A stretch of DNA of 64,000 bases from Micromonospora cremea (GTDB taxonomy: Bacteria > Actinomycetota > Actinomycetes > Mycobacteriales > Micromonosporaceae), in assembly GCF_900143515.1 (NCBI RefSeq), contig NZ_FSQT01000002.1:1241501-1305500 (forward strand). Reading direction: 5' to 3'. The translations under genes were made by a program, and so were the position numbers. A model generated the notes under the pieces. It had not been told where the DNA came from. It ran no database searches and was given only the letters and a program-made list of their open reading frames with translations. Of the stretch, positions 26,831 through 31,185 are shown in pieces (position 1 is the first letter of the stretch; the number at the start of each line of letters is the position of its first letter).

Positions 26831-29236
26831 TCAGAGCTTGTCGATCGGGGCGTGCCGCAGCACCAGCCACATGGTCTGGTCGCCGAAGTCGATCTGCGCG
26901 CGGGCACCCGGGCCGTGCCCCTCGACGGCGACCACCCGCCCCAGCCCGTAGCGCTGGTGGTTGACCCGGTCGCCGGCCGACACCTTCGGCCCCTGCGGCA
27001 GCTCGCTGGCCGTGGTCAGGCGGCTGGCGTCCACGCCGAGCCGCTTCGCCAGCTGCGCCGCCTTCGGCGTGCCCCCGTTGAAGGTGCCCCGCCCGCCCGG
27101 CACGCGGTCCGCGCGGCCGCCCACGCCGCCGCCCCCACCGGCCCACGAGGTGTACGACCCCTCGGTGCGCTCCCAGTGCACCAGCTCCGGCGGCAACTCC
27201 TCCAGGAACCGCGACGGAGGGTTGTAGGACGGCTGTCCCCAGGCCGAGCGGGTCACCGCCCGGGAGAGGTAGAGCCGCTGTCGGGCCCGGGTGATGCCGA
27301 CGTACGCAAGCCGGCGCTCCTCCTCCAGCTCGCGGGTGTCGCCCAGCGAACGCAGGTGCGGGAAGACACCGTCCTCCAGCCCGGTCAGGAAGACCACCGG
27401 GAACTCCAGCCCCTTGGCGGTGTGCAGCGTCATCAGGGTGACCACGCCCTGATGGTCGGGGTCGTCGGAGGGGATCTGGTCCGCGTCGGCGACCAGTGCG
27501 ACCTGCTCCAGGAAGCCCGCCAGAGTTGCCCGCTCGCCCTCGGCGCCGGTCGCCTCGATCCGCTCGGTGTACTCCCGGGCGACGCTGACCAGCTCCTGGA
27601 GGTTGTCCACCCGGCCGGCGTCCTGCGGGTCCAGGCTCTCCTCCAGCTCGGTGAGGTAGCCCGAGCGGGTCAGCAGCGCCTCCAGCACCTCCTCCGGAGT
27701 GCCGGTCTCGGCCAGCTCCCGGGCGCCGTCGAGCAGAGCCACGAAGTCGGCGATGCCGTTGGCCGCGCGGCTGGAGATGCCCGGCGCCTCCCGGGCCCGG
27801 CGCAGCGCCGCGCCGAAGGAGATCCGGTCGCGGCTGGAGAGCGCCTCGACGCACGCCTCCGCTCGGTCGCCGATCCCCCGGCGCGGAGTGTTCAGCACCC
27901 GCCGCAGGCTCACCGTGTCGTCGTCGTTGACCACCGAACGCAGGTACGCGAGCGCGTCGCGGACCTCCTTGCGCTCGTAGAAGCGCACCCCGCCGACCAC
28001 CTTGTAGGGCAGGCCGACCCGGATGAACACCTCCTCGAAGACCCGGGACTGGGCGTTGGTGCGGTAGAAGACGGCAACGTCGCCGGGGCGGGTCTCGTCG
28101 GCGTCGACCAGCCGGTCGATCTCCCGCGCCGCCCAGTCCGCCTCGGCGTGCTCGGTGTCGGCCACGTAGCCGACGATCCGCTCGCCGGCGCCGGCCTCGC
28201 TCCACAGCCGCTTCGGCTTTCGGGAGGTGTTCCGGTCGATCACCGCGTTGGCCGCGTTGAGGATAGTCTGGGTGGAGCGGTAGTTCTGCTCCAGCAGGAT
28301 CGTCCGCGCGTCGGTGAAGTCCCGCTCGAACTCCAGGATGTTGCGGATCGTCGCGCCGCGGAACGCGTAGATCGACTGGTCGGCGTCACCGACCACGCAC
28401 AGCTCGGCCGGCTCCAGCCCGTCGGTGCCGGAGACCAGCTCCTTGATCAGCGTGTACTGCGCGTGGTTGGTGTCCTGGTACTCGTCGACCAGGACGTGCC
28501 GGAACCGGCGGCGGTAGCTCTCGGCGACGTGCGGATGGGACTGGAGCAGGTGCACCGTGGTCATGATCAGGTCGTCGAAGTCCAGCGCGTGCGCCTCACG
28601 CAGCCGACGCTGGTAGAGCGTGTACGCCTCGGCCAGCGCCCGCTCGTTGGGCCCCGTGGCCCGCGCGGCGAACTGCTCCGGGTCGATCAGCTCGTTCTTC
28701 AGGTTGGAGACCTGGGCGGCCAGCCCGCGTGCCGGGTAGCGCTTCGGGTCGAGGTCCAGCTCGCGGGTGACCAGCTGCATCAGCCGGCGCGAGTCGTCCG
28801 CGTCGTAGATCGAGAACGTCGACTTGAGGCCCGCGTGCTCGTGCTCGGCGCGCAGGATGCGGACACAGGCGGAGTGGAACGTCGACACCCACATCAATCG
28901 GGCCCGCGGGCCGACCAGCGCGGCGACCCGCTCCTTCATCTCGCCGGCCGCCTTGTTGGTGAAGGTGATCGCGATGATCTCCCCGGGATGCACGTCCCGC
29001 GCGGCCAGCAGGTAGGCGATCCGGTGGGTGAGCACCCGGGTCTTGCCCGACCCGGCGCCGGCCACGATCAGCAGCGGCGAACCGGCGTGGCTGACCGCGT
29101 CGCGCTGCGGCCCGTTCAGCCCGGCGAGCAGCTGCTGCGGATCGAGGCGGACAGCGGCCGGCCGGGGCCGGTCCGGACGGGCCGGCGCGGACTCCGGCGC
29201 AGGCGGGGACGCGGGAATGTCGAAGAGAGGATGCAT
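26831..29236 (-). CDS. pcrA: ATP-dependent DNA helicase PcrA/UvrD1
   Basis: Superfamily-1 3'-5' helicase acting in nucleotide excision repair and replication. The 801-aa protein has LNGPQRDAVSHAGSPLLIVA (Q motif) leading to Walker A GAGSGKT, ITFTNKAAGEMKERV (Ia), LVDEYQDTN (II), VVGDADQSIYAFRGA (III), LEQNYRSTQTIL (IV), LMTLHTAKGLEFPVVFL (V) and EEERRLAYVGITRAR (VI). The C-terminus has the PcrA-type Tudor-like region with DRVNHQRYGLGRVVAVEGHG, which contacts RNA polymerase in relatives. It is divergent from the chorismate mutase leader, an order also seen in M. tuberculosis (uvrD1, Rv0948c). Confidence 0.95.
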   Translation of the reverse strand: MHPLFDIPASPPAPESAPARPDRPRPAAVRLDPQQLLAGLNGPQRDAVSHAGSPLLIVAGAGSGKTRVLTHRIAYLLAARDVHPGEIIAITFTNKAAGEMKERVAALVGPRARLMWVSTFHSACVRILRAEHEHAGLKSTFSIYDADDSRRLMQLVTRELDLDPKRYPARGLAAQVSNLKNELIDPEQFAARATGPNERALAEAYTLYQRRLREAHALDFDDLIMTTVHLLQSHPHVAESYRRRFRHVLVDEYQDTNHAQYTLIKELVSGTDGLEPAELCVVGDADQSIYAFRGATIRNILEFERDFTDARTILLEQNYRSTQTILNAANAVIDRNTSRKPKRLWSEAGAGERIVGYVADTEHAEADWAAREIDRLVDADETRPGDVAVFYRTNAQSRVFEEVFIRVGLPYKVVGGVRFYERKEVRDALAYLRSVVNDDDTVSLRRVLNTPRRGIGDRAEACVEALSSRDRISFGAALRRAREAPGISSRAANGIADFVALLDGARELAETGTPEEVLEALLTRSGYLTELEESLDPQDAGRVDNLQELVSVAREYTERIEATGAEGERATLAGFLEQVALVADADQIPSDDPDHQGVVTLMTLHTAKGLEFPVVFLTGLEDGVFPHLRSLGDTRELEEERRLAYVGITRARQRLYLSRAVTRSAWGQPSYNPPSRFLEELPPELVHWERTEGSYTSWAGGGGGVGGRADRVPGGRGTFNGGTPKAAQLAKRLGVDASRLTTASELPQGPKVSAGDRVNHQRYGLGRVVAVEGHGPGARAQIDFGDQTMWLVLRHAPIDKL

Positions 29237-29426
29237 CGCGCGACAAGTCTATGCCGCCGGCCGGACACTTCCCGACCGCGCGGTGTCGTCGCCGGCGCGC
29301 CCGCCCCCGGACGCAGAACGATGACGGTGAAAGCAACCTGGTCGTCACGCAGGGGCCGGCTTCCGGAACGTGCCGGAGCGGAGGATGCGCCCTGTTGAAC
29401 CGAATCCTTGCGCACAGGCGGCCGGC

Positions 29427-29510
29427 ATGGGCATACTCGACGGCGTGTTCGCTCAGCGCTACTACTTTTACTACGGCACCGGGAGTCCGGCAGCCGTAGG
29501 TCGCGCCTGA
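29427..29510 (+). CDS. Leader peptide of the chorismate mutase attenuator
   Basis: A 27-codon frame, ATG to TGA, too short to stand out on coding statistics. Codons 12-16 read Tyr-Tyr-Phe-Tyr-Tyr (bases 29460-29474), an extraordinary run given how rare these residues are nearby. Tyr and Phe are the end products of the pathway that chorismate mutase opens. The peptide ends 18 bases before a terminator hairpin with a T-tail, and codons just after the run can pair with the left arm of that hairpin. This is the usual layout of a ribosome-mediated transcription attenuator. A weak AGGCGG lies just upstream as a ribosome site. Confidence 0.85.
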   Translation: MGILDGVFAQRYYFYYGTGSPAAVGRA

Positions 29511-29558
29511 TCGATCAGACCTGCGAAAGCCCCGGGCTCCTGGAGCCCGGGGCCTTTT
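29481..29558 (+). promoter_or_regulatory. Tyr/Phe transcription attenuator (antiterminator and terminator)
   Basis: Terminator: CCCCGGGCTCC (29530-29540) pairs with GGAGCCCGGGG (29542-29552), followed by CC and TTTT (29555-29558); the loop would open a few bases. Antiterminator: GGAGTCCGG (29482-29490) can pair with CCGGGCTCC (29532-29540) over nine positions with one G-U pair, taking the left arm of the terminator. A ribosome stalled on the Tyr codons leaves the antiterminator arm free; one that reaches the stop codon would cover it or release the terminator. An extra hairpin AGGTC/GACCT (29498-29522) could act as a pause structure. Confidence 0.8.
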
Positions 29559-29604
29559 CGTCCCGGGATCCGGGCACCGGGCACGACAGTGCGAGAGGTA
29601 CCCG

Positions 29605-30000
29605 ATGATGACAGACGTGGCGGAGCAGAGCGGCGGGCCGGTCCGACCGGGGGCGGACCAGTCCCCGGTCGACAGAGGCGAGCCCGTGGCGGGGGTGGCG
29701 CCACCCGCCGAGGACGGCGGGCCGGCCGAGGCACGGACCGGCACCGCGGAGCCGGCCGCCGCCGCACGGATCGTGCAGATCAGGGAACGGATCGACGAGA
29801 TCGACAACGCGTTGATCTCGCTCTGGCACGAGCGGGCCACGCTGTCCCAGGAGGTCGGGGCGACCCGGATGGCGTCCGGCGGGACGCGCCTGGTGCTCTC
29901 CCGGGAACGGGAGATCCTGGAGCGTTTCCGGGTCGCACTCGGCGCCGACGGCACCCAACTGGCGCTGCTGCTGCTCCGGGCGGGCCGCGGCCCGCTGTGA
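29605..30000 (+). CDS. Chorismate mutase (AroQ-delta type)
   Basis: Converts chorismate to prephenate, the branch point to Phe and Tyr. The 131-aa protein has a low-complexity N-terminus of about 50 residues (Gly, Pro and Glu rich) and a C-terminal helical domain: RIVQIRERIDEIDNALISLW, the RMASGGTRLVLSRE segment, and LALLLLRAGRGPL. These match the M. tuberculosis intracellular enzyme Rv0948c, which is weakly active alone and is switched on in a complex with DAHP synthase. The LLLRAGRG tail is the part that contacts DAHP synthase there. GAGAGG lies 6 bases before the ATG pair at 29605/29608. It is controlled by the attenuator upstream. Confidence 0.92.
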   Translation: MMTDVAEQSGGPVRPGADQSPVDRGEPVAGVAPPAEDGGPAEARTGTAEPAAAARIVQIRERIDEIDNALISLWHERATLSQEVGATRMASGGTRLVLSREREILERFRVALGADGTQLALLLLRAGRGPL

Positions 30001-30168: not shown

Positions 30169-31185
30169 TCAGGCAGCCTCGTGGCTCGCGACGATCTCGC
30201 GCTTCTCCGCGAAGTGGCAGGCGCTCGGGTGGTCCGAGCCCTGCCGGATCTCCAGCAGCGGGACCTGCTCGGCGCAGACCTCCTGCGCCTTCCAGCAGCG
30301 GGTGCGGAACCGGCAGCCCGAGGGCGGGCTGATCGGCGACGGCACGTCACCGGTGAGCCGGATGATCGTCTTGTTGTGCCGCTGGGTCGGGTCCGGCACC
30401 GGCACCGCCGAGAGCAGCGCCTGGGTGTACGGGTGGGTCGGCCGCTCGTAGATCTCGTCCTCGGTGCCGATCTCCACGATCTTGCCGAGGTACATCACCG
30501 CGACGCGGTCCGAGAGGTGACGGACCACCGACAGGTCGTGCGCGATGAAGACGTACGAGAGACCGAACTCGCCCTGGAGCTGCTCCAGCAGGTTCATCAC
30601 CTGGGCCTGGATGGAGACGTCCAGCGCCGACACCGGCTCGTCGCAGACGATCACCTCGGGCCGCAGCGCGAGCGCCCGGGCGATGCCGATGCGCTGACGC
30701 TGACCGCCGGAGAACTGGTGCGGGTACCGGTTGATGTGCTCCGGGTTGAGCCCGACCAGGTCGAGCAGTTCCCTGACCTTCGCCCGACGGCTGCCCTTCG
30801 GCGCCACCTCCGGGTGGATCTCGAACGGCTCACCGAGCAGGTCACCGACGGTCATCCGGGGGTTCAGCGAGGTGTACGGGTCCTGCATCACCAGCTGGAT
30901 CTGGCGGCGGAGGCGCCGCAGCGCCCCGCCGGAGAGCTTGGAGATGTCCTGGCCCTTGTAGACCACGCTGCCGGCGGTCGGCCGCTCCAGGTTCATCAGC
31001 ACCCGGGCGAGGGTCGACTTGCCGCAGCCGGACTCGCCGACCACGCCCAGCGTCTCACCGGCACCCAGACCGAATGAGACCCCGTCGACCGCCTTGACCT
31101 GACCGACGGTCTTCTTGAACACCACGCCCTGGGTGACGGGGTAGTGCTTGACCAGGTCACGGACCTCGATGATGTTCTCAGACAC
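30169..31185 (-). CDS. Peptide ABC transporter ATPase, DppF/OppF type (operon 2)
   Basis: 338 aa, starting at a GTG. Walker [37 protein letters not shown] and [20 protein letters not shown] are all intact. The C-terminal oligo_HPY region carries [16 protein letters not shown] and a final SACHF. It overlaps the D-type gene by 8 bases. It is very similar to the product of 14775-15812, identical over long stretches around the ABC signature. It is the last gene of the operon. Confidence 0.93.
   Translation of the reverse strand: MSENIIEVRDLVKHYPVTQGVVFKKTVGQVKAVDGVSFGLGAGETLGVVGESGCGKSTLARVLMNLERPTAGSVVYKGQDISKLSGGALRRLRRQIQLVMQDPYTSLNPRMTVGDLLGEPFEIHPEVAPKGSRRAKVRELLDLVGLNPEHINRYPHQFSGGQRQRIGIARALALRPEVIVCDEPVSALDVSIQAQVMNLLEQLQGEFGLSYVFIAHDLSVVRHLSDRVAVMYLGKIVEIGTEDEIYERPTHPYTQALLSAVPVPDPTQRHNKTIIRLTGDVPSPISPPSGCRFRTRCWKAQEVCAEQVPLLEIRQGSDHPSACHFAEKREIVASHEAA

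Follow-up and report, generated by a model that had tools for sequence, protein, structure and literature searches.

The chorismate mutase gene of Micromonospora cremea is very probably controlled by a ribosome-mediated transcription attenuator of the trp/phe type, which comparative and modelling evidence suggests would sense charged tRNA-Tyr and tRNA-Phe. We analysed a stretch of 64,000 nucleotides (assembly GCF_900143515.1, contig NZ_FSQT01000002.1, positions 1,241,501–1,305,500, forward strand), hereafter the window, whose first letter is position 1 and to which all coordinates below refer. The gene (29605..30000, plus strand, ATG start at 29605) encodes an AroQ type II chorismate mutase, as indicated by matches to PF01817, TIGR01808 and NF005894 and to the structure 2qbv in the PDB (E 2e-17); the nearest solved structure is that of M. 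tuberculosis Rv0948c. A Shine–Dalgarno-like GAGAGG was read in the sequence at 29593..29598 on the plus strand. On its upstream side, the attenuator region borders a minus-strand gene for a UvrD/PcrA-type helicase, which begins at 29236. The next gene after chorismate mutase, for an ABC-transporter ATPase (30169–31185), also lies on the minus strand, so chorismate mutase seems to be a single-gene unit without a co-directional follower. Between the helicase gene and chorismate mutase, we found a short leader open reading frame (ORF), a hairpin, 1:2, at 29475–29495 and an intrinsic terminator at 29529–29558. Chorismate mutase places chorismate on the Phe/Tyr branch, and the codons clustered in the leader are those of the end products of this pathway; the downstream gene thus makes the amino acids that would be sensed.

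All of the RNA elements lie on the plus strand. The terminator, 3:4, was found by folding and by a terminator scan (two overlapping matches, compared with a mean of 0.1 in shuffles), and it comprises a stem at 29529–29553 followed by TTTT at 29555–29558. This U-tract, between leader and gene, ends 46 nt ahead of the ATG at 29605; the preliminary description of this DNA had placed it there, and reading of the sequence, the scan and the fold all agree. Segment 2, GGAGTCCGG (29482..29490), the 5′ side of the predicted antiterminator, can pair with segment 3, CCGGGCTCC (29532..29540), read in the sequence within the terminator. Hairpin 1:2 has arms at about 29475–29482 and 29487–29495, and it appears in a 179-nt fold of the leader region (−87.1 kcal/mol, z −3.14), the folding check that had been proposed earlier. 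By eye, we also recognised a putative Micromonosporaceae-type helix, GTAGGTC / GACCTGC, which would pair 29496–29502 with 29518–29524 and span the stop codon of the leader. An Rfam search of the window gave no match at gathering scores, so the leader does not belong to the Phe or Trp leader families by that measure, and a lax search of 29350–29700 gave nine sub-threshold matches, all to other RNA families.

These elements suggest the following mechanism. Transcription would begin at or beside GTG 29445, and a ribosome would load on the leaderless end. When Tyr or Phe is scarce, the ribosome would stall on 29460–29474 and cover the 5′ arm of hairpin 1:2, leaving segment 2 available to segment 3 at a time when segment 4 has yet to be transcribed, so that polymerase would read through into chorismate mutase. 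When Tyr and Phe are ample, the ribosome would reach the stop codon, with segment 2 covered or kept in hairpin 1:2; the 3:4 terminator would then form, and transcription would stop near 29558. Conservation, covariation, the register of codons with structure and the specificity for one gene were computed here, and we infer the promoter, leaderless initiation, termination in vivo and a starvation response.

The leader had initially been described as a frame of 27 sense codons, from ATG 29427 to TGA 29508–29510, containing Tyr-Tyr-Phe-Tyr-Tyr. The aromatic run (TAC TAC TTT TAC TAC, 29460..29474, plus strand) and its coordinates held, and the run is conserved with Phe/Tyr exchanges, but the start codon did not hold. 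Of 83 Micromonosporaceae loci, counting the window, 7 have ATG at the position of 29427, 30 have GTG and 46 another codon, whereas at the position of 29445 GTG stands in 82 loci and ATG in the remaining one. The leader therefore very probably starts at GTG 29445 rather than at ATG 29427, which would fall in the promoter spacer, giving the predicted leaderless leader-peptide ORF MFAQRYYFYYGTGSPAAVGRA (29445..29510, plus strand, stop TGA 29508–29510), whose frame is conserved. Across the 83 loci, a −10-like element, CATACT (29432..29437), lies 7 nt (72 loci) or 6 nt (11 loci) upstream of the start codon; the starts were chosen with the help of a −10-like box, which fixes this distance in part. 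That choice does not account for the conservation of CATACT as a sequence or of TTG: TTGnnn (in the window the −35-like TTGCGC, 29408..29413) precedes CATACT in all 83 loci, 18 nt away in 74 and 17 nt away in 9. In most leaders of other families the −10-like box reads CATACT, CACACT or CAGACT. A generic sigma-70 scan found no consensus promoter. No Shine–Dalgarno-like motif precedes the leader start in any of the 83 loci, and the data are compatible with leaderless initiation at GTG 29445. Five consecutive Phe/Tyr codons occur 5 times in the 7.76-Mb genome, and the pattern read backwards occurs 4 times, so the run by itself is unremarkable. The other four runs sit in frames of 222–341 amino acids, and only at this locus is the frame short. 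As judged from the sequences, it is the conservation of the leader, not the run alone, that goes beyond chance.

A Phe/Tyr leader precedes chorismate mutase in all 89 Micromonosporaceae loci read (L001–L085, with the window as L001, and L159–L162), in two of which (L009 and L085) the script overlooked the leader, which was then recognised in the sequence. Within this set, L001–L055 are the closest chorismate mutase matches and are biased to near relatives, and L056–L085 were hand-picked from other genera among the matches listed. A pattern derived for the family matched 233 of 300 Micromonosporaceae genomes, one match each, and 104 of the 106 genomes of the window's genus (counted from the table), again once each; the reversed pattern had no match among the genomes listed. 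The preliminary description had proposed a comparison across Micromonosporaceae, where the leader is indeed present, but this scope was too narrow, as other families and orders also have it. It was seen in 40 of 46 loci from other families in the order of the window (L157 by hand); no leader was found by the criterion used in the remaining six (L088, L094, L133, L134, L137 and L163). Beyond the order but within the class, the leader is present in 10 of 20 loci (L167, L168, L169, L171, L179, L181, L182, L184 and L186, plus L183 by eye), nine have none by the criterion (including L170, L173–L178 and L185; L172 is a second paralogue) and one, L180, ends too early for a call. Loci L096–L124, L165 and L166 are left out of these counts.

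The association with chorismate mutase also emerged when the gene was ignored. We scanned public genomes with a pattern made of a −10 box, a start codon and an aromatic-Gly motif, which matched at least 118 stretches. Among the matches listed, representing 80 loci, chorismate mutase lies within 1 kb downstream in 75. Three further loci (L203, L227 and L263) encode a like peptide, and the fetched sequence ends too near to show the gene; two (L222 and L239) are without the peptide and look like chance matches. The named records among the matches listed are mostly from Streptomyces, Mycobacterium/Mycolicibacterium, Geodermatophilaceae and Pseudonocardia, with one from Saccharomonospora; several named Mycobacterium species carry the leader. 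Typical peptides are MLTHPTFLFTYGNRPAGCHGRAA (Streptomyces), VLNMQRRFFYGYRPAVPVV (Mycobacterium) and VLATVSFFYGHRDPVSVTAG (Blastococcus). Altogether the leader was seen ahead of this gene in about 20 families, and a predicted attenuator of this kind is present ahead of chorismate mutase in many actinomycetes, including Streptomyces and Mycobacterium.

GC-rich DNA folds easily, and GC-rich hairpins beside a fortuitous aromatic frame could in principle imitate an attenuator. In single sequences the energies of the 2:3 duplex were indeed unremarkable and did not go beyond those of shuffles (group median p 0.065–0.40). A cross-clade swap test took over from this weak test: the segment 2 of each clade was paired with its own terminator arm and with the arms of other clades, and the values were double-centred. 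The test covered 19 clades from 17 families, two divergent genera of the window's family counting as clades of their own, and dropped only L141, for which the wrong hairpin had been picked. Native partners fitted better for the antiterminator 2:3 (z −4.1, p 2e-4, expected direction in 17 of 19 clades) and for hairpin 1:2 (z −5.0, reached in 0 of 20,000 permutations, expected direction in 15 of 19). The arms of the terminator, as a positive control, gave z −6.5. Control stretches gave +2.0 (5′ part of the leader), −1.2 (region after the terminator), +1.4 (reversed sequence) and −0.6 (a non-partner stretch), and shuffles gave +0.3, −0.1 and −0.9. An earlier version of the test with 20 clades had given p 0.00045. 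That 29482–29490 can pair with 29532–29540, the left arm of the terminator, as had been noted at the outset, is confirmed by the sequence, and the pairing covaries across clades.

Counts of individual base pairs in hairpin 1:2 pointed the same way. We compared 57 distinct 21-nt hairpins out of 65 stretches, a selection that favours structure because 8 out-of-register stretches were dropped; Streptomyces was excluded since its hairpin has 22 nt rather than 21. Paired cells amounted to 86.7% versus 76.9% in shuffles, cells altered on both sides to 28 versus 12.2, and the score to 0.209 versus 0.091, and none of 500 shuffles reached any of these values. Further pair types were also more numerous (11 versus 8.3; 5 of 500 shuffles). 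Two pairs had changed on both sides, a count that was not unusual for these 57 hairpins (454 of 500 shuffles). Versions of the hairpin slid out of register were at most 54% paired, with scores of at most 0.123. A mutually exclusive antiterminator 2:3 and protector 1:2 are thus indicated by covariation across clades and not in single sequences. This covariation and the recurrence ahead of one gene in so many families make a chance arrangement exceedingly improbable. Relatives lacking the aromatic run or compensatory changes had been named beforehand as what would count against the proposal; the run recurs in many families, both pairings covary and the controls are flat.

Consistent with ribosome stalling, the aromatic codons appear to be in register with the switch. 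Our folding model covers 12 nt from the start of the A-site codon and gives the probability that segment 3 becomes sequestered while segment 4 is still to be transcribed. For the window, this modelled probability was 0.01 with the A site before the aromatic run. Along the five aromatic codons it took the values 0.55, 0.84, 0.88, 0.88 and 0.76, dropping to 0.48 one codon later and to no more than 0.12 over the five codons after that. It was 0.35–0.55 over the final five sense codons, 0.17 with the A site at the stop codon and 0.44 without a ribosome, and in the model this late rise is an argument against a perfectly clean switch. In all 12 clades with both values, stalling at codons −4 to −2 gave a higher modelled value than the stop codon (0.60 versus 0.17). 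Of 57 distinct leaders, with no more than 6 taken per clade, 55 had their modelled antitermination peak on the last aromatic codon or one of the five codons before it. Clade means lay above those of shuffles of the region after the run in 19 of 19 clades, counted as in the swap test (0.79 versus 0.63, p 1.9e-6), although few single clades were clearly above their shuffles on their own. The original interpretation, attenuation by stalling at Tyr and Phe codons, is supported by conservation, covariation and the modelled peak at the run.

Codon choice within the leaders is strongly biased. TTT makes up 171 of 287 Phe codons (60%) in 148 distinct chorismate mutase leaders, compared with 0.3–5% in other frames: 13 of 432 in the window's long GC3-rich frames, 21 of 1355 in Streptomyces loci, 54 of 1105 in Mycobacterium loci and 1 of 350 in Geodermatophilaceae loci. 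Where the codon two before the last aromatic encodes Phe, it is TTT in 145 of 154 cases (counted over 210 leaders). The window has its own rare UUU at 29466–29468, and UUU is favoured in the leaders despite their high-GC genomes. This preference is likely to reflect a slow or starvation-sensitive codon, and RNA structure may also account for it.

It could be argued that the small ORF encodes a functional peptide and that the hairpins are the ordinary terminator of a small gene, as the peptide is conserved within the family. However, third codon positions after the run are more constrained than those of the enzyme gene (0.89 versus 0.67 identical in 82 loci), which therefore indicates a constraint on the RNA. 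In L159–L162, from two genera, the frame after the aromatic run is shifted and RNA like GCCGTAGGTCG is retained, and between families it is chiefly the run and the RNA pairings that persist. The C-terminal end of the peptide seems unimportant from these comparisons, and we regard a functional peptide as hardly credible.

Another explanation retains the sensing of Tyr and Phe and changes the output, which would be ribosome access to the chorismate mutase start (translation attenuation) or the loading of Rho. In relatives, for which the script always takes the best hairpin after the stop codon, stems are GC-rich, and U-tracts are weak in mycobacteria and some other clades; the available text of PMC13236596 describes mycobacterial cysteine leaders as translation attenuators. 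Against such an output, the window has a strong stem whose TTTT ends well ahead of the gene, GAGAGG (29593–29598) lies outside the hairpins, and the 2:3 pairing competes with an arm of the terminator. We therefore consider a translational or Rho-linked output improbable and transcription attenuation much the better reading.

We also compared the leaders of DAHP synthase genes in 32 genomes, which were hand-chosen rather than randomly sampled. The type I family (PF00793) gave 19 matches and 18 loci, one match being without a locus. Under the same loose criterion, 12 of the 18 loci show a short frame rich in aromatic residues, and Trp occurs in every one of these 12, in motifs such as YWRF, WRFYF and FYFWY, and YRWF in the window's own genome. 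Among 210 chorismate mutase leaders, only 4 encode Trp within or before the run; Fisher's test on this contrast gave p 8e-17, a value that is indicative only, as the sequences are related. The motif used to pick leaders required Phe or Tyr and could hide Trp-ended runs, and in looser scans that treated Trp alike we noticed no recurrent Trp-bearing leader ahead of chorismate mutase. For type II DAHP synthase (30 loci of 32 matches), the loose criterion picked out only L340, whose frames were judged by eye not to be leaders. The Trp pattern fits a trunk enzyme that serves three amino acids versus a branch enzyme that serves two.

The window's own genome has both a chorismate mutase leader and a type I DAHP synthase leader. 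The latter (L318, G000:C2:906615, outside the window) consists of VTRSYRWFRQPARTPVTSP ahead of a type I DAHP synthase-family gene, followed by a stem-like stretch and TTTT. Of the six order-level genomes without a chorismate mutase leader, five carry a type I DAHP synthase leader that contains Trp (L311, L312, L314, L315 and L316). A strict replacement of one leader by the other is ruled out, as both occur in L317, L318, L320, L321 and L323. We moderately favour a two-tier aromatic attenuator regulon that actinomycetes would have inherited from a common ancestor, in which the chorismate mutase leader reads Phe/Tyr, the type I DAHP synthase leader reads Phe/Tyr/Trp, and UUU is the hungry codon.

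On its own, the chorismate mutase of M. tuberculosis has little activity, according to the available text of PMC4281200, and its complex with DAHP synthase is more than 100-fold more efficient. A widespread RNA switch would bring chorismate mutase under a further, transcriptional layer of control, one that the available text of a dedicated comparative study (PMC1262725) does not report; that text describes no conserved RNA structures ahead of the phenylalanine or tyrosine operons of Actinobacteria. Likewise, none of the 8 leaders in the available text of a study of S. lividans (PMC8079986) is for Phe or Tyr, and term look-ups for chorismate in the accessible parts of PMC4633059, PMC10937400, PMC9094748 and PMC11133741 found no mention. 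Our literature search, whose scope excluded most subscription journals, supplements and figures (PMC13236596 Extended Data Fig. 5 among them), found no recognisable report of a chorismate mutase attenuator. Attenuation itself is already known, and an earlier mention of this leader may exist. The predicted attenuator is a candidate Tyr/Phe sensor in antibiotic producers, and it would supply a reason for the striking rare-codon bias.

As far as the accessible portions of the sources describe them, known systems resemble this one in part. In Actinobacteria, trp, ilvB, trpS and leuS are known to be under attenuation (PMC1262725); their leaders are similarly short and often leaderless ORFs with competing hairpins (PMC1262725, PMC8079986), but they sense other amino acids. 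In E. coli, pheL-pheA also places a gene with chorismate mutase activity under leader-peptide attenuation, responding to charged tRNA-Phe (PMC11802643); there the enzyme is a fused chorismate mutase-prephenate dehydratase in a proteobacterium, whereas here we find a lone chorismate mutase, Tyr and Phe codons and a predicted leaderless start. In Corynebacterium glutamicum, aroF, a DAHP synthase gene, is preceded by aroR (Neshat et al. 2014, via PMC11802643 and PMC4046766), which has Phe-Tyr-Phe and is likewise an aromatic leader acting by ribosome-mediated attenuation in an actinobacterium. However, the leaders that we found ahead of type I DAHP synthase genes carry Trp as well, and aroR controls the first common step of the pathway, whereas the window's leader lies ahead of chorismate mutase rather than a type I DAHP synthase gene and would control the Phe/Tyr branch.
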